From Flectobacillus major DSM 103 (GTDB taxonomy: Bacteria > Bacteroidota > Bacteroidia > Cytophagales > Spirosomataceae), in contig NZ_KE386491.1 in NCBI RefSeq assembly GCF_000427405.1, forward strand, positions 4,726,296 through 4,790,295: 64,000 bases of DNA, in the 5' to 3' direction. The position numbers were made by a program, and so were the translations under genes. Below, piece after piece: positions 3,933 through 31,044 of this stretch (its first letter is position 1; every line of letters begins with the position of its first letter). The notes beneath the pieces were generated by a model. It had not been told where the DNA came from. It was given only the letters and a program-made list of their open reading frames with translations, and did not search any database.

Positions 3933-3984
3933 GCGGTCTGGACGGGACTCGAACCCGCGACCCCATGCGTGACAGGCATGTATT
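3933..3984 (-). other. attL: 52-bp tRNA-Asp 3' fragment
   Basis: This is a perfect 52-bp direct repeat of 46494-46545. It contains the anticodon arm, variable loop, T-arm and 3' acceptor strand of tRNA-Asp, but no 5' half. It marks the left end of the island, 149 bp ahead of the integrase gene. Confidence 0.93.
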
Positions 3985-4092
3985 GTTTGTTTTTATTTAT
4001 ATTGATATATTTTTAAATATCTGATTTTTAAACGTTTATATGCGTTTATTCTTTTGGTTATTTGTATTTAATTGTATTTTTTTGCTACATTT

Positions 4093-4111
4093 GTTTAAAC
4101 TATGTTTAAAC
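4093..4111 (+). repeat. 19-bp arm-type repeat near attL
   Basis: GTTTAAACTATGTTTAAAC occurs here and again at 46405-46423, that is, just inside both island ends (109 and 71 bp from the cores). Two GTTTAAAC palindromes are separated by TAT. This fits integrase or excisionase arm sites. It also lies about 20 bp before the integrase start, so autoregulation is possible. Confidence 0.6.
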
Positions 4112-4132
4112 CATATAAATCAAAATTTGTAA

Positions 4133-6923: not shown

Positions 6924-6932
6924 TTTCTACCA

Positions 6933-10472: not shown

Positions 10473-10521
10473 AGCTAAATTTATAAAATGGGCTTCCAAA
10501 CAGCGATTTTACAATAATTGG

Positions 10522-11061: not shown

Positions 11062-11108
11062 TAAGATACGAATATAGTTCTAATATTATAAAAGAGAAAG
11101 ATAGAAAA

Positions 11109-11750: not shown

Positions 11751-11752
11751 CT

Positions 11753-12298: not shown

Positions 12299-12370
12299 TT
12301 GTATTTGGGGTGCTGTTAATATTAGTGGTACCCCACTACTAAATCAACAACCACAAAAAAACAATAAAAC

Positions 12371-12422
12371 TTTGTGTCATCGAAAGGGACAACACACCAT
12401 CCCCCTGAGTAGACGACACAAA
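12371..12422. promoter_or_regulatory. Inverted repeat overlapping xis-like start codon
   Basis: The arms TTTGTGTC (12371-12378) and GACACAAA (12415-12422) are perfect complements. The right arm ends on the A of the ATG. It could be an operator for the gene's own product or an RNA hairpin that masks the start. Confidence 0.4.
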
Positions 12423-12754
12423 TGGAAATATCCTCCAAATTAATCTTAGTAACTCCAGAAGAATTAGTATCACTAATTCAGCATTCCGTTCGCCAAGTCA
12501 TTGCTGAGCAAACACCAAAATCTTTAGGAACAGCCGACAAGCCTTTGTCGATAGATGAAGCTTCTTCATTTTTAAATATTCCGAAATCAACACTGTATCA
12601 ATTTACTTCCTCTAGGAAAATCCCTTTTCAAAAAATTGGCAAGAAGATTCTTTTCTTCAAAGCAGACCTTATCCAGTGGGTCGAATCTGGTAAAAAGAAA
12701 ACTCGAAAGGAAATCGAAGAAGAGGTTTTTGGTAAGAAAGGAGGCTTACGATGA
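12422..12754 (+). CDS. Excisionase-family HTH protein
   Basis: This is a 110-residue DNA-binding protein. Residues ~42-92 are a winged HTH of the MerR/excisionase type: PLSIDEASSFLNIPKSTLYQFTSSRKIPFQKIGKKILFFKADLIQWV, the form found in Bacteroidota element excisionases. The C-terminus is a charged helix. It probably directs excision or regulates the module. The stop overlaps the next gene's start (ATGA), so it begins an operon with 12751 and 13148. Confidence 0.8.
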   Translation: MEISSKLILVTPEELVSLIQHSVRQVIAEQTPKSLGTADKPLSIDEASSFLNIPKSTLYQFTSSRKIPFQKIGKKILFFKADLIQWVESGKKKTRKEIEEEVFGKKGGLR

Positions 12755-13170
12755 ATAATCCTTATAAACAAGCAGATACTAAAGCTTTTGTTTTGTATTG
12801 GGAGGAAGCATTTGCTCAAAGCTTTTTTCATGTAGAAAACCTACTTGATGCTAAATGTAAATATCTGGAAAAGCTAAGAAAAATGCTTTTTGATGAAATG
12901 AAGGAAGATGTTTCTGTGAGAATTAAAAATTTAGAGACAGAAATCAATCAAATCATTGGTCTATTGGATATGGTACAACTTCTAAAGACGGCATATCTTG
13001 AAGAAACGGCACAAATCGCAACACTTTTGTCGAACCTAACGTGTGAAAAACAAGTGCTACTGCTTCAAAATCAGGAATTAAGGGAGCGTAATGATTTACA
13101 AGATAATCTCATTAATCTACTTCTAAGTCGATGTTTTACAACCCTAAATGAAGAAAATGATGAATACTGA
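12751..13170 (+). CDS. Coiled-coil hypothetical protein of the mobility module
   Basis: This is 139 residues, almost wholly helical with heptad-like spacing (residues ~30-130), and has no recognised domain. It overlaps the excisionase-like gene by 4 bp and the ATPase gene by 23 bp, showing tight translational coupling. Small coiled-coil genes at this position are common in Bacteroidota mobilisable elements, but the function is unknown. Confidence 0.65.
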   Translation: MNNPYKQADTKAFVLYWEEAFAQSFFHVENLLDAKCKYLEKLRKMLFDEMKEDVSVRIKNLETEINQIIGLLDMVQLLKTAYLEETAQIATLLSNLTCEKQVLLLQNQELRERNDLQDNLINLLLSRCFTTLNEENDEY

Positions 13171-14290
13171 TAAATATAAGCAATACCTCAATCCTGAACA
13201 GATTAGCACAGTAGTTCACGAAAAGACTAACATTGCAAAGATTCTGGCAACACAGGAAAAGATACAATCTAATAGCTGTAAAACGATTGCGTTTAGCTCT
13301 CCCATCATTACGTATAATGAAACAGGTGTTGTTTTTCCTAACACCATAAATATTATTCAAGGTAAAAAGGGTGTACATAAACCAAGGTTAACGGAGATTT
13401 TTTGTGGATTGATGTTGCAAAGAAATATTACCCAATCAAGCCATCGGTTTTTAGGGATGAAACGAAATGCTATGCAGAAATCGGTTGTGCTTTATGTTGA
13501 TACAGAACGTAATATCAATGACCAATTTCCTTATGCTATTCAAAAAATCAAGCTACTTTCAGGCTATTCGATAGAAGATAAACCCGAAAATTTAGATTAC
13601 ATATCGTTAATTGATATTCCTCGAAGTGAAAGGTTTGATACGTTAAATGAGTATATCAAAAGGTTTAGAACACGATATGATATATATAATCTCTTCATTG
13701 TGTTCGATGTCGTGACTGACTGCGTTGAGAACTTTAATGATGTAAGAGAAAGCCTTAGACTTGTTGATATGCTCAATGAAACCATTAACACCTATAATGT
13801 TACTTTTCTTTGTGTAATTCATGAAAATCCTTCAGCAGGTAACGACAAAGGTCGTGGACACCTTGGTACGGAATTAAATAATAAGGCTTCACAAGTTATA
13901 CAGATAGGCTTTGAAAAGGATAATCAAGGAAACGATACAGACTTGATACGTTTAAAGTTCTTACACTCAAGAAATACTAAGAGATTAGACCCAATTTACG
14001 TACAGTATTCAGAAGAAACAAAAGGGTTAGTCCTTGCTAGCAGTGACTTTATTAATGAAAAGCTAGCCATGAAGAAAAGTAAGGCACAGATAGCAGACAT
14101 TCAAAATTGGCTTACAGATAATATGAAGGAACCCAAAAGTAAAAAAGAGTTGATTGAGTTGATTACGGAGGCTTTTGATTGTGGTTCGAGGATAGTTGAG
14201 GATAGGCTCAAGGAGCTAGATGACAAGGGATTTATTGAACGATTTACGGTGGGGAAGAGTGCACATTACAAATTAATTATTCCATTTTAA
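13148..14290 (+). CDS. RepA/DnaB-like RecA-fold ATPase of mobile element
   Basis: This looks like the RecA-type ATPase often encoded beside xis in Bacteroidota elements and related to plasmid RepA helicases. The P-loop is degenerate: INIIQGKKGVHKPRL in place of GxxxxGKS/T, although a Lys is kept. Strands VVLYVDTE and LFIVFDVVTD follow, then VTFLCVIHENPSAGNDKGRG, a RecA-like loop. The C-terminal ~80 residues are a winged-helix domain (EPKSKKELIELITEAFDCGSRIVEDRLKELDDKGFIERF). The length is 380 aa. It could drive element replication during transfer or excision. ATPase activity is uncertain because of the P-loop. Confidence 0.7.
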   Translation: MKKMMNTDKYKQYLNPEQISTVVHEKTNIAKILATQEKIQSNSCKTIAFSSPIITYNETGVVFPNTINIIQGKKGVHKPRLTEIFCGLMLQRNITQSSHRFLGMKRNAMQKSVVLYVDTERNINDQFPYAIQKIKLLSGYSIEDKPENLDYISLIDIPRSERFDTLNEYIKRFRTRYDIYNLFIVFDVVTDCVENFNDVRESLRLVDMLNETINTYNVTFLCVIHENPSAGNDKGRGHLGTELNNKASQVIQIGFEKDNQGNDTDLIRLKFLHSRNTKRLDPIYVQYSEETKGLVLASSDFINEKLAMKKSKAQIADIQNWLTDNMKEPKSKKELIELITEAFDCGSRIVEDRLKELDDKGFIERFTVGKSAHYKLIIPF

Positions 14291-14293
14291 CAT

Positions 14294-14337
14294 GTTCGCA
14301 CTCGCAAAGTCATATATATGGGTCTGCGAATGCGAGC
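14294..14337. promoter_or_regulatory. Inverted repeat before small HTH gene
   Basis: Two 13-base arms (14294-14306 and 14325-14337) match at 11 positions. They lie between the ATPase stop and the likely start at 14358. It could be an operator or a weak hairpin, and it argues against starting the HTH gene at 14292. Confidence 0.4.
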
Positions 14338-14357
14338 GTATAAAAGCTCTCAATATT

Positions 14358-14546
14358 ATGTCTGATACAAATAAGTTTCCTCCGATGAATAGAACGGAGT
14401 TAGCTCGAAAATATAAGGTAAGCCTACCTACTTTTAATAAATGGCTTGGATTAATCTCGAATCTTGTTCTGATTGAAAATCAAAGGATATTCACTCCTAA
14501 GCAAGTGGAGTTAATCATAAACCATCTAGGAGAGCCCCCTGACTGA
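14358..14546 (+). CDS. Small HTH protein
   Basis: I prefer ATG 14358 (MSDTNKFPPMNRTELARKYK) over the upstream ATG 14292, because the intervening stretch is an inverted repeat and encodes an unlikely N-terminus. The 62 residues contain a helix-turn-helix (RTELARKYKVSLPTFNKWL) and a second helical segment. It is the kind of small DNA-binding protein found in Bacteroidota elements, probably a regulator of the mobility region. The target could be the repeats directly downstream. Confidence 0.55.
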   Translation: MSDTNKFPPMNRTELARKYKVSLPTFNKWLGLISNLVLIENQRIFTPKQVELIINHLGEPPD

Positions 14547-14560
14547 CTCATGTAAACAGC

Positions 14561-14610
14561 ATGAATTAACTTCAATTAATTCGAATTAACGCATATTAAC
14601 CCTCGTTAAC
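14561..14610 (+). repeat. Five tandem 10-bp repeats NNNAATTAAC
   Basis: Five decamers in exact register end in ATTAAC, ATTAAT, ATTAAC, ATTAAC and GTTAAC. The variable triplet comes first. The 10-bp period puts all copies on one face of the helix. They lie between the small HTH gene and the RHH-protein gene and could be iterons, an oriT element or an operator array. Confidence 0.75.
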
Positions 14611-14635
14611 CCAAAGGTGGTTTTCGAGGGTTAAT
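14595..14635. other. Hairpin overlapping decamer repeats; candidate oriT or terminator
   Basis: The arms ATTAACCCTCG (14595-14605) and CGAGGGTTAAT (14625-14635) are perfectly complementary over 11 bp with a 19-base loop. The right side runs into TTATTTTT. It can serve as a terminator for the upstream operon; its overlap with the decamers also suggests a transfer origin. Confidence 0.55.
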
Positions 14636-14681
14636 TATTTTTAAACCAGTAAGTTAATAACGATTAATCTAATATTAAGCA

Positions 14682-15101
14682 ATGAACGAAATTAGAACAG
14701 GGAGAGCATTACAGTTGGAAGGACTCCAATATGCTACCAACAAAGTAACCTTAGGCTTCAAGTGTGAAGCTCGAACTAAAATAGAATTGGCACAAGAGGC
14801 TCAGCAAATGGGAATGACTTTGAGTGAGTATGTAGACACTATCATATCAACCCGAAAGCAGCAAACAAAATCAGACAACAACTCTGAGTTGGAGACATTG
14901 TTATCTCAACAAAAAGCCGACCTTCATCATTTTAAAAGGAAAGTCGATTTTTATGAAAATGAGTTATTGCAAAACGCATTTCAACTGCGTAAAGGTCAGA
15001 CTCTCGAATACAGAAATATCTATGGAGAGACCGTAAGTAAAACGATTACCCAGATTGAGGATATTTACACCATCTTATTAGACACCGTTAAACTCTCGTA
15101 A
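14682..15101 (+). CDS. Ribbon-helix-helix-like protein, possible mobilisation accessory
   Basis: This is a 139-residue protein. Residues ~20-55 (KVTLGFKCEARTKIELAQEAQQMGMTLSEYVDTII) have the strand-helix-helix pattern of RHH DNA-binding proteins such as MobC or TraY. A coiled coil follows (~65-95), and then a small C-terminal domain. It lies directly after the decamer array and hairpin, as expected for an oriT-binding accessory protein. No relaxase follows, so the transfer module may be incomplete. It is probably co-transcribed with the 76-aa membrane protein 2 bp downstream. Confidence 0.55.
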   Translation: MNEIRTGRALQLEGLQYATNKVTLGFKCEARTKIELAQEAQQMGMTLSEYVDTIISTRKQQTKSDNNSELETLLSQQKADLHHFKRKVDFYENELLQNAFQLRKGQTLEYRNIYGETVSKTITQIEDIYTILLDTVKLS

Positions 15102-18223: not shown

Positions 18224-20983
18224 ATGAAAAACACTTTTCTTAGCCTTATCCTCCTTTTACTCACATTTTGTACAACGATTGATACAGCCAGAGCTCAAAA
18301 AATAACGCCCGTAGCTAAAGCAACAGAACCCATAGTCACAAAAAACACCTCAAACGAAGAGCTTACACTTGCTTTAGTCGTTGGGGTTAGTAAGTACCGA
18401 ACCATACAGCCGAATCTCCAATTTGCCCATCAAGACGCTATTGACTTTGCCAATTTTCTGGTTTCTAAAGTAGGGGGGCGTGTTCCTGAAGAGAATATTG
18501 TCTTACTCAAAGACACTATGGCTACGTCTTCACAGATATATAGACATTTGGAGGATTTGAAAGAGAGAGCTTTAAAAACAAAAGCTGGTAAAAAGGTTAG
18601 AATTGTACTCTTCTTTTCTATGCACGGAGGAGCTTTTATAGACCCAGTAGGAAAGGCAGAAAAAGGCTATTTGTTGACTTATGATACCGATAGGGGTTTT
18701 CCTACACAATCGAGTATTCAGTTTGAAAGACTTCATCAATACACCCAAAGGTTATTGAAACGAGAAAATACGAAAGTGGAGGTATATATTGATGCTTGTA
18801 GAGCAGGCTTAGATATAACTCAGAAAAAAGAAGAGGCTTGGGCTTCCGAGTTGTCGTTGAAAAATTGGGATAATGTGCTAAAAATAGTGTCTTGTAGCCC
18901 TCGTGAATACTCTTATGAAAGTAAGCAATGGAACAATGGGGCTTTTACTTACTACTTACTAAGAGGCTTAAGAGGGCTGGCAGATGATGAAGGCAATAAA
19001 GATGAGAAGGTAAGTTTATATGAATTAACGTATTTCTTAGCCAAGCACTTAGAAGGTGATTTGGGGGCAGATAACCCCCAAATGCCAGAAAAACAAGGCT
19101 ATGGACGTTTGACCTTAGCAAAGGTTGATTCTGTTACCTTAGCAAGTATTAAATCCAATATTGAAATAGTAAATATTGGAGTTTTTACGAATAAGTCTTT
19201 TGTTGAAAAGAGTATCAATAACATGGACAAAGAAATCCAGCGTATCTACAAACGTTTTACTAAAAACCTATACATAGGTTCTATGGATTTAGCTGTTAAA
19301 AATTATGAATTATTAGCTAAAAAAATTACAGAGGAAAAATATTTGCCTATTAGAGGTTCTATTAAACGAGAGTTAATAGCTGAGTTGATGGATGATAGTT
19401 ATCGTATTCTATCATCTTATTTAGTTTGCGATGATAGAAGCACAGCATTAAAAAAAATAAATATTAAAGATTTGCTTAAAAATTTAAATTATACTTTAGA
19501 CTTAATTGGGAAACATGATTTTAGATATAAGAGTATAGTTTCTGAAATAAAATTCTTTGAAAGCTTACGAGAAATTTACAATAACAATTTAGGTAATGCA
19601 GAACAGATATTGACTACCATTTTGACACAAGATACTACTGCCATATACGTGTACAATGATTTAGCCGTGTTACTTGAAATTAAAGGCTATTATGACAAAG
19701 CTTTAAATATCCTTGACAAAGGATTAAAGATTTACCCAAATTGGGCTAATCTTTGGAGTAGTAAAGGGATAGTTTTACATGAATCAACCCGATTGGAAGA
19801 GTCAATAATAGCTTTTAATCGTGCAATAGCTCTAAATAGAAATATTGCAGAATCGTATTACAATAAAAGTGTTGTGTTAGTAAAGTTAGAACAATATAAA
19901 GAAGCAATAAGAGTGTTGGATACTGCAATTTATTTAAAAAAAGACTATGCACTTGCTTACTGCAACAAAGGATTTGCACTGTCTAAATTAGGAGAGTACT
20001 CAAAAGCTGTGTGCTATTTTGACACTGCATTAATATATAAACAAGATTTAATTGAAGCATATAATAATAAAGGGGATTGTTTAGTGAGGTTAGGGCGTAA
20101 TGACGAAGCAATAATAGCTTCCGACTCTGCTATTCTCATAAATAATAGATTTATATCAAATTATAACAAAGAGTCTTATGTTGGAGGAAACTTAAATCGG
20201 TATATTAATTCTAAATTCGACTCTGCTAATGTGAAGATTAATAATGGTGAACTTATAATGTCATATAATACTAAGGGGGTAGCACTCATTAACTTAGGTC
20301 GGTTTAGGGAGTCAATTACTGCGTTTGATTCAGTTATAGCATTAAAAAAAGACTTTGCGGGTGCATACTATGCAAAAGGATTTGCTTTATATAATTTAAG
20401 GTTTTATTCCGATGCAATTAAAGAATTTGATTTGGCAATAGCTCATAAAAGAAACGATGTATATGTGCATGGTTATAAAGCAAATGCACACTACCTTTTA
20501 GAACACTATGCTGAAGCAATTGCTACATGTGATGTAGCGATTGCATTAAAAAAAGATTATGCTGATGGATATATTGTGAAAGGTTATTGCTTTTCTAAAT
20601 TAAACCAAGATACAGAGGCAATTATCGCTTATGATTCAGCGATTGCAATTTATGAGAAGCGGTTATTCTCATTTGCATTTAATGAATTTATATCAGATAT
20701 TCATAATAGCCGAGGATTCTCTCTATGTAGATTAGGACGATACGCAGAAGCAATAAATGCTTTTGAAAAATCAATCACATTAAATCCTCAGCAACAAAAT
20801 CCCTACTATAACCTATCATGCCTGTATTCCCTACAAAACCAAAGTAAAGAAGCCTTGTCTTATCTTGAGCAAGCCTTGCAAAAAGGCTATAACGATTTTG
20901 CCCATATCAAAGAAGATACAGATTTAGATAATATTCGGGCTTTGCCAGAGTTTAGTGCGTTGCTCAAAAAATATCAAAAATAG
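18224..20983 (+). CDS. Exported caspase-like peptidase with TPR array
   Basis: The 919-residue protein begins with a signal peptide (cut after ARAQ). Residues ~45-300 are a C14 caspase/metacaspase domain with the catalytic His in FFSMHGG (H134) and Cys in YIDACRAG (C192). Family members cleave after Arg/Lys or Asp. A helical linker (~310-455) leads to about a dozen tetratricopeptide repeats (YNKGFAL...EAI...D.AI...), presumably for protein binding. It should be periplasmic or envelope-bound. It is one of three caspases within 10.5 kb. The last ~55 residues are almost identical to those of the paralogue at 25779, including at the DNA level. Confidence 0.85.
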   Translation: MKNTFLSLILLLLTFCTTIDTARAQKITPVAKATEPIVTKNTSNEELTLALVVGVSKYRTIQPNLQFAHQDAIDFANFLVSKVGGRVPEENIVLLKDTMATSSQIYRHLEDLKERALKTKAGKKVRIVLFFSMHGGAFIDPVGKAEKGYLLTYDTDRGFPTQSSIQFERLHQYTQRLLKRENTKVEVYIDACRAGLDITQKKEEAWASELSLKNWDNVLKIVSCSPREYSYESKQWNNGAFTYYLLRGLRGLADDEGNKDEKVSLYELTYFLAKHLEGDLGADNPQMPEKQGYGRLTLAKVDSVTLASIKSNIEIVNIGVFTNKSFVEKSINNMDKEIQRIYKRFTKNLYIGSMDLAVKNYELLAKKITEEKYLPIRGSIKRELIAELMDDSYRILSSYLVCDDRSTALKKINIKDLLKNLNYTLDLIGKHDFRYKSIVSEIKFFESLREIYNNNLGNAEQILTTILTQDTTAIYVYNDLAVLLEIKGYYDKALNILDKGLKIYPNWANLWSSKGIVLHESTRLEESIIAFNRAIALNRNIAESYYNKSVVLVKLEQYKEAIRVLDTAIYLKKDYALAYCNKGFALSKLGEYSKAVCYFDTALIYKQDLIEAYNNKGDCLVRLGRNDEAIIASDSAILINNRFISNYNKESYVGGNLNRYINSKFDSANVKINNGELIMSYNTKGVALINLGRFRESITAFDSVIALKKDFAGAYYAKGFALYNLRFYSDAIKEFDLAIAHKRNDVYVHGYKANAHYLLEHYAEAIATCDVAIALKKDYADGYIVKGYCFSKLNQDTEAIIAYDSAIAIYEKRLFSFAFNEFISDIHNSRGFSLCRLGRYAEAINAFEKSITLNPQQQNPYYNLSCLYSLQNQSKEALSYLEQALQKGYNDFAHIKEDTDLDNIRALPEFSALLKKYQK
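20815..20983. repeat. Near-identical inverted segment shared with 25779-25947
   Basis: About 170 bp encoding the last TPR and tail of the two caspase-TPR proteins is highly conserved at the DNA level in opposite orientation, while the rest of the two genes has diverged. This suggests gene conversion or a recent recombination. Confidence 0.75.
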
Positions 20984-20987
20984 GTCA

Positions 20988-21010
20988 AGAAAACTCACAC
21001 AGCCTCTGCA
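20988..21010 (+). promoter_or_regulatory. AAACTCACA-type upstream motif (copy 2)
   Basis: AAAACTCACACAGCCTCTGC lies ~85 bp before the 21079 gene. It matches the 28681 and 29436 copies at most positions. Confidence 0.3.
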
Positions 21011-21078
21011 TTTTTAGATAGTCTATTAGAAACTCTTTGAGAGTAAATCAATCGTAGATTATTAAAAATGTCAATCAA

Positions 21079-21513
21079 ATGAAAAAGTGGGCTTTAGGTT
21101 TATCGTTGTTAGTATTGGCTTGGGCATTCAGTCAGTGGAGTAGTAAAAAGCTACATCCCAAGCCAGATATTTTTGGGCTATTAACACATCAAAAATGGCT
21201 TTTAGCAGATACAAATGCCATAAATGAGAAAGCCGAAACCATAGGTTCCAGCTATGTATATGTTTTTTTGCCAGAAGGAAAATTCAAGGTAAATGGCTAT
21301 CGAAAAAAGAAAGAAACCGCCACGATATGTTCTGGTTATTGGTCTTTAGAGGAAAACAATCTTTTTCTGTTTTTTATGGAAGGCGATGTTCTTCAATATA
21401 CCGTCAGCTCTATTACGCATCAGGAGCTAATAACCGAAATAAAAGGCTGTGTCAATAAAAGTAGTACCAATACCTGCCGTCAGCTTTTCCTTGCTTTGGC
21501 ATCCTTAAAATAG
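21079..21513 (+). CDS. Lipocalin-like membrane-anchored protein
   Basis: The 144 residues begin with an uncleaved-looking membrane helix (MKKWALGLSLLVLAWAFSQW). The rest is an extracytoplasmic beta-rich domain, LLTHQKWLLADTN...YVFLPEGKFKVNGY...GYWSLEENNLFLFF, with the strand and turn pattern of Bacteroidota lipocalin-like domains. It follows the caspase-TPR gene by ~95 bp and precedes the sigma-like gene. No function can be assigned. It may sense or bind a small ligand, as lipocalin folds do. Confidence 0.55.
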   Translation: MKKWALGLSLLVLAWAFSQWSSKKLHPKPDIFGLLTHQKWLLADTNAINEKAETIGSSYVYVFLPEGKFKVNGYRKKKETATICSGYWSLEENNLFLFFMEGDVLQYTVSSITHQELITEIKGCVNKSSTNTCRQLFLALASLK

Positions 21514-21614
21514 CTAATGCTTTTTGTTGATTAAGTTGCTGTATGTCAGTTATCTGTTAATTGATTTTGAGGAAAATGTATTTTAGGCAAGGACAATTAC
21601 TAACTCAAAACTCA

Positions 21615-21635
21615 CAGCTCATAGCTCAAAACTAT
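21615..21635 (+). promoter_or_regulatory. AAACTCACA-type upstream motif (copy 3)
   Basis: AAAACTCACAGCTCATAGCT lies ~55 bp before the sigma-like gene at 21675, which would fit autoregulation if it is the factor's own promoter. Confidence 0.3.
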
Positions 21636-21674
21636 ATCGCTTTTCCCCGAAACTAACCCCCAAATTGTAATACA

Positions 21675-23114
21675 ATGGTCAATATAGAAAATATTAAAAT
21701 CTCAGAAATGTTACTCTATGCCAATAATGGGCATTACTATGGAGACATGATTAGCCCTAATCTATTGCCCCAAGAAAAAGCAACACTCATCATAACAGCT
21801 CTAAAAAGGATAAAATATATCCAAAATGCCTTAGAGTCGATTGATTATTATTTGAATCGTTGGGACGAAGTTGATTTGAGCGATACCCAAACGCAAAAAG
21901 CCTTTTTTTTTCTTTTGCAAGATGTTAAGGCATCGCCATTAGAAAAAGAGAAAATTAAAAATTATTTACAAGATTATTTCAATAATAATCTGGGGAAAAA
22001 AGATGCCGACTTATCAACAGAAGAAAGTGAAAAAAAGGAGGAGGATAAAAGTAGAGTTACAACTTTTGTCCGTAATATTTTTGCAAATTTTTATAAGGAG
22101 CAAGTAGTATTTGACTTAAAGAACTCTATAAATGATTTTATTACTGGTATAAAGAATGATTTTGGTGTAAATTCAAAGCTCAAGCAAGCTATTGAAAAAC
22201 ATTTTTATAAAGAAATAGCAGAAAATAGAATTAAAAAGCAAGACCTATACAAGAGCTTTTTGACTAAAAAAAATAATTTTCAGACTTTCCTTAATGATTC
22301 TATTGTTCAACAGCTACTACAATTATCTAAAACGGAACCATTAGTGAAATTATATAACCAAGCTGCTATTGGCAAAATCAATCTTTTGGAGATGAATTAC
22401 TATTCATTACCTGAATTTTCACAGTTCATACAACTTCTTTTAACAGTAAAGAATCAATACGAAAAGGTACAAATTCCTGATTTACAGCGAAGAATTCAAG
22501 CTACTGTAAAAAGAGCAGGACAAAAAAAACATGAGGATGAACAAGAAGAAATCGTTTCTGAAATCCGTGATGATATCCGAGAAATGTTCTGGAATGGTTC
22601 TTTTGATAATCAAAATTTTGGAGGCTATATCAATACCATTGCAACAAGGAAAATGAATGAATTGCATAAAAATAGCTACCGTTTTGATAGTTTTAAAGAA
22701 GTAGAGACTATCGAAGAAAGCGAAAGTGGCGATATTTCTGCTAAATATCAAGATAAGAGTATTGAGGCTTTTACCTTAATTGATTTGAATGAGTTTAAAA
22801 ATTATGATGAAGAAGAAACAAAAAAACTTATTCTCAAGCAAATAGCTCCATTGATAAAGCCTTATGAAGAAAAACGAAAGGAAATTAAAGGGATTAATAC
22901 AGCTTTATGTTTTTTAGAGGAGTTAGGAGATTACAATATTATTGCAAAGAAATTGCATGGTAAAAATGATGATAAAACCAAAGAAAAAACCAGACAATCC
23001 AAAAAAGATGGAAAAACTATTTTAATAATAGATAATCCCAAATTTGAAAGGTTTTTTGAAGTAATAGAAAAGTATTCAATCAATAAAAAAAATGACAATG
23101 GAACTAAATTCTGA
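21675..23114 (+). CDS. Sigma-70-like factor (putative)
   Basis: The 479-residue protein has an unusual helical N-terminal ~250 residues. After this, residues ~285-340 (EIVSEIRDDIREMFWNGSF...GGYINTIATRKMNELHKN) resemble sigma region 2, which normally melts the -10 region. A C-terminal helical part (GDYNIIAKKLHGKN...) could be a region-4 HTH. The 3' end overlaps the next gene, a membrane protein of anti-sigma layout, and an exported caspase follows. I infer a membrane-controlled transcription factor of the island. The match is by eye only, and another DNA-binding role is possible. Confidence 0.45.
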   Translation: MVNIENIKISEMLLYANNGHYYGDMISPNLLPQEKATLIITALKRIKYIQNALESIDYYLNRWDEVDLSDTQTQKAFFFLLQDVKASPLEKEKIKNYLQDYFNNNLGKKDADLSTEESEKKEEDKSRVTTFVRNIFANFYKEQVVFDLKNSINDFITGIKNDFGVNSKLKQAIEKHFYKEIAENRIKKQDLYKSFLTKKNNFQTFLNDSIVQQLLQLSKTEPLVKLYNQAAIGKINLLEMNYYSLPEFSQFIQLLLTVKNQYEKVQIPDLQRRIQATVKRAGQKKHEDEQEEIVSEIRDDIREMFWNGSFDNQNFGGYINTIATRKMNELHKNSYRFDSFKEVETIEESESGDISAKYQDKSIEAFTLIDLNEFKNYDEEETKKLILKQIAPLIKPYEEKRKEIKGINTALCFLEELGDYNIIAKKLHGKNDDKTKEKTRQSKKDGKTILIIDNPKFERFFEVIEKYSINKKNDNGTKF

Positions 23115-23883
23115 AAATTTATATAGATATCAAAACGGGTTTATGACAATTCAAGAAACCCTTGATTTTGAAGAATTACTTGAAAATAATCCCGATTTTC
23201 AAGCAAGGATAGAGCAAGTTGAAGACCCTGTTTTCAAGCACTTAGCCGACAATCGAGCGTTTATTGATGAATTGCTTGAAGCAAAAGCAAAGCCTATTCC
23301 TTGGTATCGTCGTAAGGCATTTGCTTTCGCTGCATCTGTTATTGTACTTGTTGGTGTTACATTATTGGTCTATAATATTTACGATTTAAGTAATCCAAAT
23401 AGTGTAAGTATCAAAACGCCTGATAATACAACGTGGGAAAAATTATATCAACTTGCTGGAGAAAATAATGAAACCAAAGGTTTTGCTGGCCCAAGTACAG
23501 AAGAGAAAATAGATACCTTATGCGATTGTGGGAATGATTTGAGATTGAAATTTGCAAAGGATAAACAAGCATTCCTTCATTATTTAGATGAATGGAAACC
23601 TACTGGACTTTACCAAAAGCAATGTAAAACTTACTGGTTAGGGTGGATATATCTTTACGATAACCAATACTCAAAGGCTCAAGGTTATTTTGAAGAAATA
23701 TATAATGATAAAAATATTGCAGGATTAACCAGACAAAGAGCTACGATTGGATACATGAAAACGCTCATTTATCAGAAGAAGACCACTACTTTAGCCCAAG
23801 TGGCTGCTTCAGTACTAAAAGAACGTATAGACTGGAAAGATACTCATGACTTTGCTGCTAAAGTAATGGAAGCAATGCGTTAA
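23092..23883 (+). CDS. Anti-sigma-like single-pass membrane protein
   Basis: The 263-residue protein overlaps the sigma-like gene by 23 bp, which suggests translational coupling. The cytoplasmic N-terminus (LYRYQNGFMTIQETLDFEELLENNPDF) has the layout of zinc-less anti-sigma domains. A membrane helix (~78-98, FAFAASVIVLVGVTLLVYNIY) leads to a periplasmic part with a TPR-like fold (YWLGWIYLYDNQYSKAQGYFEEIY). There are Cys pairs (CDCG) near 143-146. The topology fits a sensor that holds the sigma-like factor at the membrane. It may be released by proteolysis; the exported caspase is next. Function is inferred from context. Confidence 0.55.
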   Translation: MTMELNSENLYRYQNGFMTIQETLDFEELLENNPDFQARIEQVEDPVFKHLADNRAFIDELLEAKAKPIPWYRRKAFAFAASVIVLVGVTLLVYNIYDLSNPNSVSIKTPDNTTWEKLYQLAGENNETKGFAGPSTEEKIDTLCDCGNDLRLKFAKDKQAFLHYLDEWKPTGLYQKQCKTYWLGWIYLYDNQYSKAQGYFEEIYNDKNIAGLTRQRATIGYMKTLIYQKKTTTLAQVAASVLKERIDWKDTHDFAAKVMEAMR

Positions 23884-23890
23884 AATCCTG

Positions 23891-23921
23891 AACAACAGCA
23901 CTTTTTTTGTGCTGTTGTTTC
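23891..23921 (+). terminator. Terminator after anti-sigma-like gene
   Basis: An 11-bp perfect stem AACAACAGCAC/GTGCTGTTGTT with a seven-T loop ends the sigma/anti-sigma unit and suggests the caspase gene has its own promoter or depends on read-through. Confidence 0.7.
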
Positions 23922-23972
23922 ATAAATTCTTTTCTTTTGAGTAGCTTAGGGCTAAACTCTAATCTACTCATT

Positions 23973-25772
23973 ATGCTACTTAAATCAGCCATTGTATGTT
24001 GTTTTATTAGTCTGTTGTTGGTATCGCAGACTTTTGCCCAAAAATCTCCTAAATATGCTTTTATTGTTCAGAATACTAAGTTTGATAATGACTCATGGTA
24101 TAAGACTGGTGACTTGGGTTCTATTAGTGAGAGTGGACAAACTATCAGCAATCTTTTGACAACACAAGGCTTTACGAATATTGTTGTTAGGAAAAATTTA
24201 ACATCAGATGAATTTAGAAACGCTTTTAATAAGTTTATCAGTAGTTTACCCCCAGGAGCAACCTGTGTAGTCTATCTTTGTTCACATGGTAATAAAGTTC
24301 ATGATAATTCAGGGGATGAGAAAATAGCTGACCCGAATCAAAATGATACTGATGACGAAGTGTTTGTTTGTAAAGATACTCCATACGATTCAAAATCAAT
24401 TAATACAAGACAGCAAACAGACGACAAAGGACTGTTTGACTATAGCCCCAATGCCATTATTGATGATGAAATAGGGCGTTTTAACGAAAAGATTTTAGAA
24501 AAAATAGGGAAAGATGGGCATTACCTATTGTTAGCTGATTTTTGTTATTCTGATAGGTCAGAAAAAGGGGAGAACAAGTCTGCGAATATTGTCCTAAAGG
24601 ATGCTTCTTACTTCGTTGAAGCCAATAGCCTTCTTTTCATTAAAAAATCTCTGAACACTGCACCATTTATTGTGATGGCAGCATCAAATCAATTAATGCA
24701 GGTAAATACTTCCCCTAATCGCATAAGCTATTTTGTTGCAGCAATACAATATGCCTTTGAAGCAATCTATCCATCAGATACGCCAAGCTATCTATCATTC
24801 TATCTCAAATTTCGGGACTATTTAAAATCAATCAAGAAAGGAAGTCCAAGTATTCAGCTAAAACCTGATACAAAAGTAGCTCAATTGCCCATGTTTAAAG
24901 GAGAAAGTACCTTTAAAGGATTTATGGTACTGCTCAAGAGTAATGGCTCACAGCCTACTGGAATTAAACCTCCAAAGACAATTAAAAAAGCGGTGGGAGA
25001 TGAATTTCAAGAGGTAAGCTTTACATTAGCAAACCCATTTTTATTTGAAAAAGGCTATACTGTTAACTTGTTTGAAAATAGCATAAAAAAAGCAGAAGGA
25101 TTAGTTACAGACATTGAAGAAGATGCCATCGTAATCAAATTCCCACAAGGTATCCAAGCCGAAAAAATCACGTCTATTCACATCAGCGAACGTACTAAAG
25201 AAGCTATAAAAAAATTCCAAGCTATTCAATCAAGAGAAGAGCTTGGAGCAGTACTAAAACTGTTCCATAATTCGTCTTTAGCTGTTGAAGTGAAAGATTG
25301 TATCAATCAGTATGAACTTTTAGCAGACCATACAATACGTTTAAATAATAATAATAATTGTCTGCCCAGTGCTGCCTTTAAAACCCTTAGTTTAAAAGAT
25401 AATATCAGTATTTCTGTAAAAATTCCCGATGGCTATTTTTATGATATTTTTGATGTAACAGCTACCAATGGTGTAAGAAGTTGTTACCTTATGCAAGACC
25501 CCAATACAGATGATACAGTTCCTTTATTTCGCACTCAACAACCTGACAATAATATATTTCGTTCCAAGATAACTCCACCGCTGGGTGCTTCTGCTTTATG
25601 GGTAGTCATGAGTGATGTTGCCTTTGATGGTCACTACCTTAAAGAGTATCTCTTTGATAGTGACCCCAAGCAAAACACCCCATTACAAGAATATCAAAAA
25701 TATCAACTTTGGGAAATAATTAAACATATTCGCTATTTCCATGAGATAAAATATACCGTAGTGGAAAAATAA
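23973..25772 (+). CDS. Exported caspase-like peptidase
   Basis: I use ATG 23973 because it gives a typical signal peptide (MLLKSAIVCCFISLLLVSQT, cut after TFAQ). Residues ~28-290 are a C14 caspase-like domain with VVYLCSHGNKV (H105) and LLLADFCYSDRS (C191). The insert between them is rich in Asp/Asn and may bind calcium, as in metacaspases (inference). The C-terminal ~310 residues are beta-rich and unassigned, and contain a possible SH3-like fold (~375-425). There is no TPR array, unlike the two other caspases. Its position after the sigma/anti-sigma pair suggests it acts on the envelope side of that circuit. Confidence 0.8.
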   Translation: MLLKSAIVCCFISLLLVSQTFAQKSPKYAFIVQNTKFDNDSWYKTGDLGSISESGQTISNLLTTQGFTNIVVRKNLTSDEFRNAFNKFISSLPPGATCVVYLCSHGNKVHDNSGDEKIADPNQNDTDDEVFVCKDTPYDSKSINTRQQTDDKGLFDYSPNAIIDDEIGRFNEKILEKIGKDGHYLLLADFCYSDRSEKGENKSANIVLKDASYFVEANSLLFIKKSLNTAPFIVMAASNQLMQVNTSPNRISYFVAAIQYAFEAIYPSDTPSYLSFYLKFRDYLKSIKKGSPSIQLKPDTKVAQLPMFKGESTFKGFMVLLKSNGSQPTGIKPPKTIKKAVGDEFQEVSFTLANPFLFEKGYTVNLFENSIKKAEGLVTDIEEDAIVIKFPQGIQAEKITSIHISERTKEAIKKFQAIQSREELGAVLKLFHNSSLAVEVKDCINQYELLADHTIRLNNNNNCLPSAAFKTLSLKDNISISVKIPDGYFYDIFDVTATNGVRSCYLMQDPNTDDTVPLFRTQQPDNNIFRSKITPPLGASALWVVMSDVAFDGHYLKEYLFDSDPKQNTPLQEYQKYQLWEIIKHIRYFHEIKYTVVEK

Positions 25773-25778
25773 GGCATT

Positions 25779-28628
25779 TTATTTTTGATATTTTTTGAGC
25801 AAAGTACTAAACTCTGGTAAAGCCCGAATATTATCTAAATCTGTATCTTCTTTGATATAGGCAAAATCGTTATAGCCTTTTTGTAAAGCTTGCTCAAGAT
25901 AAGATAAAGCTTCTTTGGGCTGGTTTTGTAGGGAGTGTAGGCGAGATAGGTTGTAGTAGGCGTTAGTAATATTAGGATTTAGGGCTATTACTTTTTTATA
26001 ACAAGCGATAGCATTTGTATTTTGGTGAATTATTGAACAACGAGATCCTTTATTATAGAAAGCCTCTATGTAATCGTTTTTATAATAAATTGCTTTGTCG
26101 TAAGCATCAATAGCGTCTTGGTGTTTCCCCATTTGACCTAATGTACAGCCTTTATTATAATAGATAAGAGCATTTTCTGGATTTAATGAAATAGCTACAT
26201 TGTAAAACTCAATGGCTTTATCGTAGTTCTTCAAATCCGCTAATACATTAGCTTTATTAATATAAGCATCTATATTATACCTATCAAATTCTATTCCTTT
26301 ACTGTAATACTCTGATGCCTTATTATAATTACCTAACTCATACATAAGTAATCCCTTATTTACATTAAAAACTGAGTTCATGGGTTCTATCTCAAGTGCC
26401 CTATCATAATAAATTAAAGCTTTTGAATACTTTTTTTGATTTTTCAGAATATTCCCCGCTGTAGAATAGGCATCAGCAAAATCATCTTTCAACATAATTA
26501 CCTTATTTAATGATTTTAATGCCTCTTCTTCTTCACCTAATTTTTTCAAAAGTAAACCTTTGTTATAATACGAATAAGGATATTCAGGTTTTATTGTAAT
26601 AACAGTATCATAGCATACTAATGCTTTGTCATTCTGAGAGAATAGTTCAAATAATATAGCCTTACCCATGTAAGCTTCCACAAAATCCTTTTTTATAAAA
26701 ATAGCCTTATTATACAACTCCATTGCGTGATTGTATTTCTGTAATGTGGTAAAGACCTCAGCTTTGTTATAGTATGCAAGATATTCGTCGGGCATCTGCT
26801 CGATAGCAATATTATAACATTTAATAGCATCCTCATAAGAGCCTAATTTCTCTAAACAGACACCTTTATTTGTATATAATTGCGGAATTGTGTTATCTAT
26901 AGAAATAGCTAAGTCATAATAATCTAAGGCTTCCCTAAATCTACCTAGTTCTTTTAAAATTCGAGCTTTATTATAAAAAAGAGTAAAGGTTCTCTCTTTT
27001 AAAGAGATTGCTTTATCAACATACTCAATAGCTTCCATATTCTTTCCTAAATTTGAAAGAGCTACAGCCTTATTATTCAATAAAAAAATCCATTCTGGAG
27101 ACAATTTTAATGCTCTGTCAAAAATGTTAAGTGCTTCTTTATATTTTTGCTGCTTATTATATATAAACCCTAATTCATTATAACTATATATAGCTCGGTT
27201 GTTGTGAAGAATAGATTCTTGCATTTTAGCTGTTGCAAATAGTAAATCGTTTCGGTAAATTCTACTTAAAAGTCCTTCAAAATAGTTGATTTCTGCTAAT
27301 AAATTATTATACCGATAATCACGGACTCCAAATAAAACTAAACTGTAATTTAGACTTTGAATAATTTGCTCAATTTTTTCCTTACTTATGGGTTTATTAT
27401 CATTCGCTAAATATTTTGATAAATGTTCATAACTATCATCAACCAACCCTGCAATTAGTTCCAGTTTGATAAGATTTTTTGCTGTTTGGTCAGTGGTTGT
27501 CTTAGCTAATAACTCATAGTCTTGGATGGCTTTATCCATAAAACCTAAGTCCAAATTATTCACAAAACGAGTATAAGCAGTTTGGCATTCTTGGCTCAGT
27601 TGCTTTATAAAATGTTCACCAAAGCTTTTTGGATAAACCTTTCCTTCCCTTACCACAATGGGTTCATTCTTGATAAGTTCATTCAAGGTTACACTATCTA
27701 CCACTGCCAGTACAGTGTTGTCTTGTCCCTCTTTTTCAGGTGTCTGTACATTCATTAACAGGTCTTTAGCAATCCAATCTGTTATATAATGTTTTATTTC
27801 ACGAACCATCACAATACCATCAGGTTTATCATTTCTGTATTCTTGACCATCCGCTAATCCCATTAAGCCTCTTAAAAGATAATAGGTAAATATTCCATTT
27901 TCCCATTTCTTCCCTTCATAAGCACTCTGATTGTCGAGACAAGCAACTATTTTTGTGATATTATTATACCTCCATTTCCTGTATAATTCTTCTTTCAAGA
28001 TTGAGCTTTGAGTACGACTTATCAATGCTCCACTTCTGCAAGCATCTATATATAAATTAACCGATACTTTTTTCTTTAAAAAAGCAACATCCTCTGCATA
28101 ATCCTTCAAAAAAGGCAATGCCAAAAATCTATCTTTATAGCCTGGGCTTGTATCGTGCAAACATAAAATACCATGCGTAGCAGTGTCTTGTTTATAGACG
28201 ATTTTATCCTCGTAGCCATGTGAGGAAAAAAAGAGTATAACCTTAATTTGATATTTGCTTGTGTCAATTTTATTAGATAAAGCACTTGCCTTCAACCATT
28301 CTAATTGGGTCGTAACCCTTCCAAAAGTTGCGTCTTCATTTGTCAGTATTACAATATTACTATCAGGCACACTGCCTCCAGCCTTTAATCGTAAATAGGC
28401 TTTAAAATCACGAGCATCTTTATCTGCATATTTCAATCCCTCAATCTCTCTGTATTTGCTCACACCAACAATAAAGGCTAAGGTATATACCTGTTTAGGC
28501 TTAGGGGCTGGGATAATAACAGGATCTACCAAAGGAGACTTTGCCTTAACCTGAGCCTCTGTTTTCCAACCCATCAAAAAATTAAAAAAGATAAGACCTA
28601 CTAACGAAAGAAGTGATTGAGTTTTCAT
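25779..28628 (-). CDS. Exported caspase-like peptidase with TPR array (paralogue)
   Basis: Starting at the ATG complementing 28626-28628 gives a signal peptide (cut after WKTEAQ); an ATG six codons upstream is also open. The C14 domain has FFSSHGYED (H137) and YIDACRSG (C197). After a helical linker there are about thirteen tetratricopeptide repeats (YNKAxxLxxLGxxxEALxxYDxAI). It is a paralogue of the 18224 gene with the same architecture and an almost identical tail. It is convergent with the 23973 caspase, the stops being six bases apart. Together the two long TPR-caspases bracket the sigma/anti-sigma genes. Confidence 0.85.
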   Translation of the reverse strand: MKTQSLLSLVGLIFFNFLMGWKTEAQVKAKSPLVDPVIIPAPKPKQVYTLAFIVGVSKYREIEGLKYADKDARDFKAYLRLKAGGSVPDSNIVILTNEDATFGRVTTQLEWLKASALSNKIDTSKYQIKVILFFSSHGYEDKIVYKQDTATHGILCLHDTSPGYKDRFLALPFLKDYAEDVAFLKKKVSVNLYIDACRSGALISRTQSSILKEELYRKWRYNNITKIVACLDNQSAYEGKKWENGIFTYYLLRGLMGLADGQEYRNDKPDGIVMVREIKHYITDWIAKDLLMNVQTPEKEGQDNTVLAVVDSVTLNELIKNEPIVVREGKVYPKSFGEHFIKQLSQECQTAYTRFVNNLDLGFMDKAIQDYELLAKTTTDQTAKNLIKLELIAGLVDDSYEHLSKYLANDNKPISKEKIEQIIQSLNYSLVLFGVRDYRYNNLLAEINYFEGLLSRIYRNDLLFATAKMQESILHNNRAIYSYNELGFIYNKQQKYKEALNIFDRALKLSPEWIFLLNNKAVALSNLGKNMEAIEYVDKAISLKERTFTLFYNKARILKELGRFREALDYYDLAISIDNTIPQLYTNKGVCLEKLGSYEDAIKCYNIAIEQMPDEYLAYYNKAEVFTTLQKYNHAMELYNKAIFIKKDFVEAYMGKAILFELFSQNDKALVCYDTVITIKPEYPYSYYNKGLLLKKLGEEEEALKSLNKVIMLKDDFADAYSTAGNILKNQKKYSKALIYYDRALEIEPMNSVFNVNKGLLMYELGNYNKASEYYSKGIEFDRYNIDAYINKANVLADLKNYDKAIEFYNVAISLNPENALIYYNKGCTLGQMGKHQDAIDAYDKAIYYKNDYIEAFYNKGSRCSIIHQNTNAIACYKKVIALNPNITNAYYNLSRLHSLQNQPKEALSYLEQALQKGYNDFAYIKEDTDLDNIRALPEFSTLLKKYQK

Positions 28629-28680
28629 GGTGTGATTTATGGCCAAAAGATTTGTAAATAAAAATAAGAATTTTTCAATA

Positions 28681-29499: not shown

Positions 29500-30183
29500 A
29501 TGACACATAATTTTTATTACCTCAAAAATCCAGGGATAGAGTTCCTTCAGATTTATAAAACCGAATACGAAGCTTTGTCGAAGACAGAAGTTTCAATTGA
29601 TTATTTACAAAAAGCAGATACATATTGCTTCTTTTCTGGCCCTAAAATGGTTGGGGGACTTGTACTCGCTTCTGCATCAAATGGTAACTCATTCCGATAC
29701 TTTAGTATTTTCGAAGGGAACGAAGATGGAGTTGGTACTCTAAGAGCCTTAAAAAGAAAGTTCGGTGTTAATGAAAAAGAGGCAGTCGAAATCTCTTGTA
29801 TTTGGATGAAGCGAAAAATAATCCCTAAATATAGAATATTCTTTTATCGCATTATGCTATCTGAAACACTTAAACTCGTAAAAGAAAAAGGGTACAGATA
29901 TATTTTTGGAGGCTCTGTAGAATTACACATTCAACAATTTCAGGAGCAATTCTTTTCGAAGGTATTTTATCTTGGTATGAAACCTCCACAGGTTAAAGGA
30001 ACCCTTAGTAAATCTGGAGGAATAGCTGTCATGATTTATTTTTTAGATGCTGGCTCATTACGTTTTCAAGCATTACGTTTGCTTTATAATCTAATATGGA
30101 GTAATATCTACAGTAAACTCAAATCAATATTAAAGATAAGGTGGAACTCAGTTTTCAAGAAAACAAAAGTAACATTAGGGTAA
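29500..30183 (+). CDS. GNAT-fold acyltransferase-like protein
   Basis: The 227 residues have no signal peptide. The order of elements (an N-terminal helix, a strand with a VGGLVLASA turn, then EAVEISCIWMKRKI, then a helix MLSETLKLVKEKGYRYIFGG) suggests a GNAT or acyl-homoserine-lactone-synthase-like fold, but the match is weak. A C-terminal basic amphipathic stretch (LLYNLIWSNIYSKLKSILKI) may touch the membrane. It is convergent with a LuxR-type regulator, so a signal-synthase role is conceivable though unproven. Confidence 0.35.
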   Translation: MTHNFYYLKNPGIEFLQIYKTEYEALSKTEVSIDYLQKADTYCFFSGPKMVGGLVLASASNGNSFRYFSIFEGNEDGVGTLRALKRKFGVNEKEAVEISCIWMKRKIIPKYRIFFYRIMLSETLKLVKEKGYRYIFGGSVELHIQQFQEQFFSKVFYLGMKPPQVKGTLSKSGGIAVMIYFLDAGSLRFQALRLLYNLIWSNIYSKLKSILKIRWNSVFKKTKVTLG

Positions 30184-30228: not shown

Positions 30229-31044
30229 TTATTTTAAAAGACCTTGTTTGCTCATAAATTTAGCCACATCCAATGCTGTATATAAAGGTAAATCCTCTCC
30301 AAAAAGTTGTTTTGCTTTTTCAAGAATATTTTTATTATAACTATTAATAGTGTTGATTTTAAGTCCTTGACTTTCTGCCAAATCTTTGGAAGACCTCGCT
30401 CCATTAACGTACTCTTTTAAAATTAATAATTCACGAGGCGAAAACGGATTATCTGCTGGTTTTAGTTGATTGAAATTCCTATTAAATTCTCGTAAAATTA
30501 AATTAGAGTATTCTTCAGGTAGGTCTTTTATCCTTGGATTTAAGGGTTCAAAATCATAAGTTTTAATTACAGTAAATTCTGCTACATAAGCGGTAATTTT
30601 CCCACATTTAGTTATTTGCCATGGAGATATAGTTCGCTTCACAAGAAAATGCACATCCTCTTCATGTTTAAATTTCATAGGTATTTGAACAATAAAGGAT
30701 GGCTTCAAAAAAGCCATAAGATGAGATTTGGCTTTAAGAAAGGTCTGTTCTCCTAAAAGCTGTAATAAAGAGGTGATTCCTTTAGATGGAATCATTTGGA
30801 AATATGTTTTGAGTGAGAAGGTTTTAGAATCGAAACCAAACTCTTCCAAACCTCCGTGGTCAATAATCTTGAAATTAAGTAAGTCAATGATAATAAAAAA
30901 TTGTTCTTGCCTTATTCCCTTTTTTAAACGGTGTATCTCTGTCTGTTGAGTTTCTTGTGAAACGATAAACTCATAGTCTGATTTTTTATTGTAGTGTTCA
31001 TCAGCAAAGGCCTTTACGCTCAAATATACAGCATTTGTATCCAT
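30229..31044 (-). CDS. LuxR-type HTH transcription regulator with PAS-like domain
   Basis: The 271-residue protein has a PAS-like sensory N-terminal half (FIIIDLLNFKIIDHGG...). The C-terminal LuxR/GerE helix-turn-helix is at ~202-260: FSPRELLILKEYVNGARSSKDLAESQGLKINTINSYNKNIL. This layout is common among Bacteroidota regulators and differs from true AHL receptors. An inverted repeat CCCTA-GGA-TAGGG lies ~65 bp upstream (31108-31120) and reappears in similar form at 43936, so autoregulation and a second target are plausible. Confidence 0.8.
   Translation of the reverse strand: MDTNAVYLSVKAFADEHYNKKSDYEFIVSQETQQTEIHRLKKGIRQEQFFIIIDLLNFKIIDHGGLEEFGFDSKTFSLKTYFQMIPSKGITSLLQLLGEQTFLKAKSHLMAFLKPSFIVQIPMKFKHEEDVHFLVKRTISPWQITKCGKITAYVAEFTVIKTYDFEPLNPRIKDLPEEYSNLILREFNRNFNQLKPADNPFSPRELLILKEYVNGARSSKDLAESQGLKINTINSYNKNILEKAKQLFGEDLPLYTALDVAKFMSKQGLLK

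Follow-up and report, generated by a model that had tools for sequence, protein, structure and literature searches.

The RseA/DegS/RseP/RpoE and RsiW/SigW systems combine a sigma factor of the extracytoplasmic function (ECF) type with an anti-sigma protein that has a single transmembrane (TM) helix and receives its first cut on the extracytoplasmic side. In the type III-E system described in PMC10028731, a caspase-fold TPR protease (Csx29), a sigma inhibitor (Csx30) and an ECF-like sigma factor (CASP-sigma) are encoded together, and the CRISPR-activated protease cuts the inhibitor. Operons that hold both a metacaspase and a sigma-70 gene have been described for Myxococcus, Anaeromyxobacter, Haliangium, Sorangium, Ralstonia and Fibrobacter, and the section of that paper devoted to them gives no anti-sigma gene, no mechanism and no case from the Bacteroidetes (Asplund-Samuelsson 2012, PMC3501461). 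EACC2/caspase clusters co-located with an ECF sigma factor and a TPR protein are described in PMC8195603, where a transcriptional step is proposed. Here we describe a locus in a 64,000-nucleotide stretch of the genome of Flectobacillus major DSM 103 (contig NZ_KE386491.1; the whole stretch is hereafter called the window) in which genes for three caspases of peptidase family C14 lie together with a sigma-like gene and a membrane anti-sigma-type gene.

Six genes occupy 18.2-28.6 kb of the window, and the open reading frame listing gives the layout described by the original prediction, which was made from the sequence of the window. A TPR-array caspase that is predicted to be exported (18224..20983, plus strand) is followed on the same strand by the four genes of the core (21079-25772), which encode a lipocalin-like small protein (21079..21513), a very divergent sigma-like protein of 479 amino acids (21675..23114), the anti-sigma-type protein (23092..23883) and a caspase that is likewise predicted to be exported (23973..25772, the open reading frame spanning 23907-25772 with its ATG at 23973). 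A further caspase with a long TPR array (25779..28646, minus strand, ATG at 28628) converges on the core caspase gene across a gap of 6 bp. The start of the anti-sigma gene overlaps the end of the sigma-like gene by 23 nucleotides (nt), which suggests translational coupling. We propose, tentatively, that the core is an envelope-signalling operon in which an exported caspase-fold protease clips the anti-sigma protein in its periplasmic linker and thereby frees the sigma-like protein.

The original prediction had called such a circuit a new type of regulated proteolysis. Because the cleavage of a sigma inhibitor is already known from Csx29, Csx30 and CASP-sigma as described in PMC10028731, the circuit proposed here would be a new variant of known logic. 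Unlike Csx29, which is described there as a CHAT protein activated by RNA together with Cas7-11, the proteases of the window appear to be exported, with a C14 peptidase in the core, and the inhibitor is bound to the membrane. The single-TM anti-sigma protein is shared with the RseA/DegS system, whereas the proposed first protease is a caspase-fold cysteine protease rather than DegS and the periplasmic part of the anti-sigma protein is TPR-like. In contrast to the operons in the section cited from PMC3501461, the window has a membrane anti-sigma gene between the sigma-like and caspase genes; the clusters of PMC8195603 are described as based on EACC2 and TRADD-N components, for which no search was made at this locus. 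No direct repeats of at least 22 bases within 120 bases, our check for a CRISPR array, were found in the whole window, and no Cas7-11 was found among the window proteins scanned, which represent part of its open reading frames; this search did not extend to the rest of the genome. The PDB matches obtained with the anti-sigma profile (E up to 10) included no Csx30 chain, and those obtained with the CHAT protein of locus L097 (E up to 1) included no Csx29 chain. An exported caspase encoded with a membrane anti-sigma protein did not appear in the open literature among the matches listed, as judged from titles and the beginnings of abstracts.

The gene arrangement recurs in a way that points to more than chance. 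A core-caspase profile gave 17 matches in 16 of the 101 genomes of our host-family sample at E 1e-10, and at nine of these 17 loci (the window, L013, L014, L053, L054, L057, L058, L065 and L066, of which L013 and L014 come from two of the four other genus members) an anti-sigma-type gene is followed immediately by the caspase gene in the same orientation and has another gene in front of it. An independent anti-sigma profile confirms eight of the nine (E 4e-6 to 2e-52; L053 reaches only 0.16), as does a profile restricted to the part that precedes the TM helix (the same eight, E 6e-5 to 3e-15, the first unrelated of 267 being at 0.11). For L054 and L057 the anti-sigma genes were at first identified from position and appearance (the genus profile gave E 0.5 and 4.5) and entered alignment A6 in this way; they were later confirmed by profiles made from other loci. 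The gene before the anti-sigma gene is a recognisable sigma gene at five of the nine loci (L054, L057, L058, L065 and L066, E 6e-10 to 3e-18), with Pfam sigma matches for L057 (E 1e-7), L058 (2.6e-5), L066 (9e-4) and L065 (1.2e-3) and none for L054. Of the eight other loci among the 17, two come from short contigs (L055 and L063) and two have a clear sigma/anti-sigma pair at a distance of 3.5-7 kb (L059 and L062); L064 has a sigma match at the edge of the stretch, and L056, L060 and L061 are without a pair. One Siphonobacter genome has its anti-sigma gene split into two frames (L065 8333-9078, L121 7206-7951), the sigma and caspase genes being intact as open frames.

Wider samples place this arrangement in a larger setting. 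Among 20 loci fetched from the class (L096-L115, picked from the top-scoring list, two of them belonging to the window genome), a gene that matches the sigma profile stands directly beside the anti-sigma gene in 18, and Pfam sees sigma regions in both of those that were scanned, L096 and L097; a CHAT or C14 gene was called in 12 of the 20, while the anti-sigma gene itself was not called in L104 and L108, where it was probably lost in the pruning of open reading frames. When a collection of named genomes was scanned with four such caspases, 145 relatives were obtained; 80 of them were retained, and a caspase anchor was called in 77. Sigma, anti-sigma and caspase genes occur together at five of these 77 loci, namely in Siphonobacter aquaeclarae (L066), Siphonobacter sp. 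(L065), Larkinella terrae (L058), a Saprospiraceae metagenome-assembled genome and Spirosoma spitsbergense, which has a CHAT gene after the three; three of the five are already among the nine loci above. The combination of caspase, sigma, anti-sigma and CHAT genes was seen at two of the 77 (Prevotellamassilia timonensis and an uncultured member of the Bacteroidales). The arrangement is real in several lineages, yet it is found in a minority of all such caspases. Co-occurrence in other genomes had been named by the original prediction as a check, and it holds in other genera for the trio of sigma, anti-sigma and caspase; the three caspases are not conserved as a set. In a sample of the order (44 genomes), C14 or CHAT genes lie within 10 kb of eight of 96 anti-sigma loci against 2.8 expected (Poisson P 0.008), a count for which 102 listed matches were merged by eye to 96 loci, neighbours were counted by eye, leaving out the window's third C14 gene. 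For the host family alone the figure is six of ten loci against 0.19 expected (P 5e-8), and an association of equal strength across the order was rejected, as the enrichment in this sample is confined to that family.

The product of 23092..23883 has a short cytoplasmic part, one TM segment by hydropathy (residues 76-94, 23317..23373, plus strand; 2.45 over 19 residues) and a periplasmic TPR-like part. The pre-TM profile, based on 18 anti-sigma proteins from other loci, detects it at E 1.1e-5, again with the first unrelated of 267 at 0.11; the profile of the same 18 proteins over their whole length finds it at E 6.6e-11, a score that is in part due to TPR, for which the TPR-caspases also score. 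Its NCBIfam match (E 0.019, 14.6 bits) is far under the model cut-off of 225. The C-terminal part of the family is TPR-like, the best PDB sequence match being a TPR protein at E 8e-7, and the earlier description of an anti-sigma-like membrane gene with a TPR-like periplasmic part is well supported by these results. The linker after the TM helix holds the motif E127-T-K129-G-F-A-G-P-S135 (23470..23496, plus strand), a candidate cleavage site picked out by its conservation: eight of its nine residues are unchanged as far as L014, whose protein is 37% identical overall. A looser form, [TSAVIMD][KR][GSDE] within residues 16-40 after the TM helix, is found in 11 of 14 caspase-linked anti-sigma proteins against 3.9 expected by shuffling. 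This form was written post hoc from the same 14 sequences, and the independent check is given only by nine held-out anti-sigma proteins, five of which carry it against 2.2 expected (70 of 2000 shuffles were as high).

The protein encoded at 21675..23114 probably descends from a sigma factor, since its place is held by a recognisable sigma gene at five of the nine loci and hhalign finds a region-2-like stretch in it. In the comparison with a 30-sequence sigma profile, residues 262-326 (22458..22652, plus strand) align with region 2 (profile columns 27-94) at a score of 26.5 and E 0.0049; this was a second try, a first run with seven sigma sequences having been weak (E 0.086). Such a score was reached in none of 200 column shuffles and in two of 200 block shuffles, the reversed control gave 16.9 and three other families of the window gave 11.8-17.0. 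With a profile that includes the sigma genes of the family, L013 is found at E 0.0047 over a region-2 stretch and the window protein at 0.14 with its best piece elsewhere. With the full AlphaFold model (predicted local distance difference test score, pLDDT, 63), Foldseek exceeded a probability of 0.5 only for sigma region 2 chains (5or5 at 0.75 and 9isn at 0.60, with E values of 4-6).

Clear relatives of this protein in the family sample are limited to L013 (44% identity) and L014 (29%), weak family matches (E 0.0044 and worse) being left out, and none were found in the plasmid and genome-contig collections. Two matches at class level were rejected as chance, being located inside other reading frames which we take to be of the subtilase type and of the PHP/polymerase X type. 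The 44% identity between the window and L013 compares with 79-89% for the neighbouring proteins, and at the nucleotide level it is unevenly spread: 0.82-0.90 over residues 1-80, 0.40-0.60 over residues 81-375 (21915..22799, plus strand), then 0.71, 0.68 and 0.87. Even drift was rejected as the cause, because nucleotide identity drops at residue 80 and is high again over residues 457-479. In this one pair of genomes the middle of the sigma-like gene thus looks replaced.

All three caspases of the window match Peptidase_C14 above the curated cut-off of 21.4 bits (18224, 54.5 bits, E 1.7e-14; 23907, 33.9 bits, E 3.5e-8; 25779, 40.3 bits, E 3.7e-10), and the His/Cys dyads are intact in all three (SMHG/DACRAG, CSHG/DFCYSD and SSHG/DACRSG), as they are in 30 of 31 C14 rows, the remaining row being a cut piece. 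The best TPR family reaches E 4e-45 in 18224 and E 4e-74 in 25779. The original prediction of three C14 peptidases with visible dyads, two of them bearing long TPR arrays, was therefore correct, as was its numbering of H105 and C191 with the ATG at 23973. Its claim of signal peptides on all three agrees with hydropathy for 18224 and 23907, whose N-terminal hydrophobic segments exceed a simple hydropathy cut-off; the N-terminus of 25779 is below that cut-off and its signal-like stretch is visible only by eye. Metacaspases and paracaspases are described as cutting after Arg or Lys, and caspases after Asp (PMC4357240). The caspase profile A10, whose rows are the sigma-linked L066, L065 and L058 together with L055 from a contig end, matches 11 PDB sequences, ten of which are named metacaspase (E 2.4e-18 to 6.5e-9); PDB sequence searches with the core caspase and with the domain of the left TPR-caspase gave nothing usable. 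An Asp two residues before the catalytic Cys (Cys-2) is present in 30 of 31 C14 rows, and both acidic residues of the S1 pocket (alpha-1 and Cys-2) are present in both TPR-caspases, with the core caspase keeping Cys-2 alone.

Caspase-fold genes elsewhere in the window genome stand beside the same kind of anti-sigma gene. The Pfam C14 search of the genome at E 1e-3 returned two genes, which are the two TPR-caspases; the core caspase is too divergent for this search, and equally divergent genes could be missed by it. With its own profile no second copy of the core caspase was found in the genome at E 1e-10. A CHAT search returned two genes, both of which keep the CHAT His and Cys and both of which are convergent with a sigma/anti-sigma pair and overlap its 3′ end (by 50 nt at L096 and 41 nt at L097), much as the right TPR-caspase of the window is convergent across its 6-bp gap. 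The anti-sigma profile gave four matches at three loci of this genome at E 1e-4 (at E 1e-3 a fifth was counted, which is not among the matches listed), and all five caspase-fold genes found in the genome sit at these three loci. In nine of 20 CHAT rows the C-terminus bears a hydrophobic segment that exceeds the cut-off and could act as a tether.

The four-gene core is present in three of the five genus genomes (the window, L013 and L014). Orthologues of the core caspase are 79% identical in L013 and 41% in L014, and L053, which has a relative of it (profile E 3e-83), is a more distant version of the core with a protein of 733 amino acids in the sigma place. The lipocalin-like protein, which has a weak match to Pfam Lipocalin_4 (E 0.022, 16.1 bits against a cut-off of 22.4) and an N-terminus that is hydrophobic by eye, occupies the same place in L013 (89% identity) and L014 (37%). 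A perfect 11-bp hairpin with a 7-nt loop lies between the anti-sigma and core caspase genes (23891..23919, plus strand); its stem is identical in L013, where the loop has changed from T7 to A7 as if inverted, and it was not seen in L014. No clear promoter was apparent in the alignment of the upstream region, and the block that precedes the core in both the window and L013 is the tail of the left TPR-caspase gene, a decayed remnant in L013. That locus retains pieces of both flanking genes (residues 609-682 and 759-914 of the left TPR-caspase and residues 1-91 of the right), so the TPR-caspases are probably older than the split between the window and L013. On its right side L013 has instead an ankyrin-CHAT gene with an N-terminal hydrophobic segment, and the TPR-caspases are absent from the 13 kb fetched for L014. 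We infer from these alignments that the flanking TPR-caspases are dispensable and exchangeable. The idea of the three caspases as one conserved set was rejected, since the flanks have decayed in L013 and are not found in L014, and it is the core caspase that is conserved.

Further genes were noted around the core. A protein of 227 amino acids without a Pfam match (29500-30183) has look-alikes that adjoin the core in L013, L014 and L057 (BLASTP E 6e-8) and is a possible extra component. A gene of the LuxR type with a helix-turn-helix (HTH) domain (30229-31044, GerE E 2e-5) also has look-alikes next to the core of L013 and of L014. L053 carries two more caspase-like genes (2486-5153) downstream of its core caspase, one encoding a protein of 438 amino acids that matches C14 (E 7e-11) and the other a protein of 426 amino acids that is matched only by the local caspase profile. 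On the left the locus adjoins an integrative element or defence island (639-15101), which contains a McrBC-type pair (639-3730), a tyrosine integrase gene (4133-5341), an Avs2-like STAND gene (6933-10472, PADLOC E 0), an HTH_17 gene and a weak NikA-like gene. At least 1.2 kb of its right end is common to L013 at 97% nucleotide identity, the compared stretch having begun at 14001.

In the proposed mechanism the single-TM anti-sigma protein would bind the sigma-like protein and so retain it at the inner membrane, as gene order, gene overlap, family membership and the TM segment suggest. The core caspase and, at loci that have them, the TPR-caspase or TPR-CHAT proteases are predicted from hydropathy to sit in the periplasm beside the TPR-like part of the anti-sigma protein, and this topology fits, as the two would meet in that compartment. 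Upon a signal, a caspase-fold protease would cut the anti-sigma protein in its linker, close to the outer face of the inner membrane and with the bond after Lys129 (ETK-GFAGPS) as the most probable site, and intramembrane and cytoplasmic proteolysis could then complete the degradation and free the sigma-like protein. The role of the TPR arrays would be to recognise the signal or to bind the TPR-like part of the anti-sigma protein; the core caspase and the TPR proteases may divide the roles of cutter and sensor between them, with the TPR proteases being exchangeable.

Several observations weigh against this mechanism. The hairpin separates the anti-sigma gene from the caspase gene in the window and in L013. 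In the core caspases of the window, L013, L014 and L053 a Ser replaces the acidic alpha-1 residue of the S1 pocket, which is Asp or Glu in the remaining 27 of 31 C14 rows, and a preference for Lys or Arg is therefore doubtful for the core caspase of the window type; the TPR-caspases fit the Lys motif better. Three of the 14 caspase-linked anti-sigma proteins (L014, L149 and L178) are without the strict linker motif, which is also found in anti-sigma proteins with no caspase-fold gene called nearby (e.g. L099, L100 and L115). In the rest of the order sample there is no enrichment of C14 or CHAT genes (two of 86 loci against 2.6 expected). Finally, 21675 has no sigma match in Pfam, NCBIfam or PDB sequences and is not found by the class profile of 18 sigma genes from other loci (E 4.9, rank 45 of 267), which finds the shorter proteins of the five loci named above and also misses the other long proteins (L013 at E 0.53, L014 at 17 and L053 at 16). 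The long proteins in the sigma place at these four loci have 463-733 amino acids against 176-338 for the partner sigma genes, sigma region 4 was not found in 21675 by Pfam, NCBIfam, the class sigma profile, hhalign or the models, and a shortened AlphaFold model (pLDDT 57), made to sharpen the sigma test, gave no sigma fold match. These results leave room for a helical partner protein that has taken a former sigma place, in which case the locus would be a proteolytic module with no direct transcriptional output. We regard this as less likely than descent from a sigma factor in view of the position of the gene, its overlap with the anti-sigma gene, the hhalign alignment to region 2 beyond the shuffled controls, the E of 0.0047 for L013 and the Foldseek hits to 5or5 and 9isn. 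The sigma-like label of the original prediction thus stands on synteny, on hhalign and on one of two models, and fails in the libraries, in the class profile and with respect to region 4.

The proteolytic mechanism is plausible, and a reading in which the caspases and CHAT proteins are the output of the circuit is nearly as likely. The sigma/anti-sigma pair would then sense envelope stress by other means and induce exported proteases directed against the envelope, invaders or the cell itself, a possibility that we hold with some reserve. An autoregulated sigma operon containing its own target should show the same gene order, the caspase gene behind the hairpin may have its own control, no caspase-fold gene lies near eight of the 20 fetched class loci or near 88 of the 96 order loci, and the locus adjoins an element with Avs2-like and McrBC-type genes. 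However, a pure output role requires neither a compartment shared by protease and anti-sigma protein, nor TPR on both sides, nor a conserved Lys/Arg motif in the linker. A defence or suicide module appears improbable, in which exported caspases would kill the cell or attack phages or competitors and the sigma-like protein would set the timing of defence, along the lines of the proposal made in PMC8195603 for EACC2/caspase clusters that contain ECF sigma genes. It would account for the Avs2-like gene, the McrBC genes and the integrase gene upstream and for the part of that side which L013 shares, and the mosaic sigma-like gene and the exchanged right-hand protease between close relatives resemble the changes of an arms race. 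In the 13 kb of L014, inspected by eye without a profile scan, no such element was recognised, the core caspase and the sigma-like protein are without a PADLOC match, and the TPR-caspases match only the PADLOC caspase model and models that overlap TPR stretches. To our knowledge periplasmic export is also unusual among caspase defence systems.

If cleavage of the anti-sigma protein is nevertheless the function of the core, a broader and still more tentative suggestion follows, that the Bacteroidota use exported caspase-fold proteases (C14 or CHAT, often with TPR) as interchangeable first-cut proteases of membrane anti-sigma proteins. Such a system would be a periplasmic counterpart of Csx29, Csx30 and CASP-sigma outside CRISPR and a candidate for their evolutionary source, with a K/R-G cut site in the linker and with exchange of both the sensor arm and the central part of the sigma-like protein among closely related genomes. 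The cleavage targets of prokaryotic caspase homologues are largely open, and the system would, if true, provide a concrete substrate, a cut site and a transcriptional read-out. It would be accessible in Spirosoma spitsbergense DSM 19989, Larkinella terrae KCTC 52001 and Siphonobacter aquaeclarae DSM 21668. The CRISPR-linked circuit of Csx29 would in that case appear as one branch of a wider theme.

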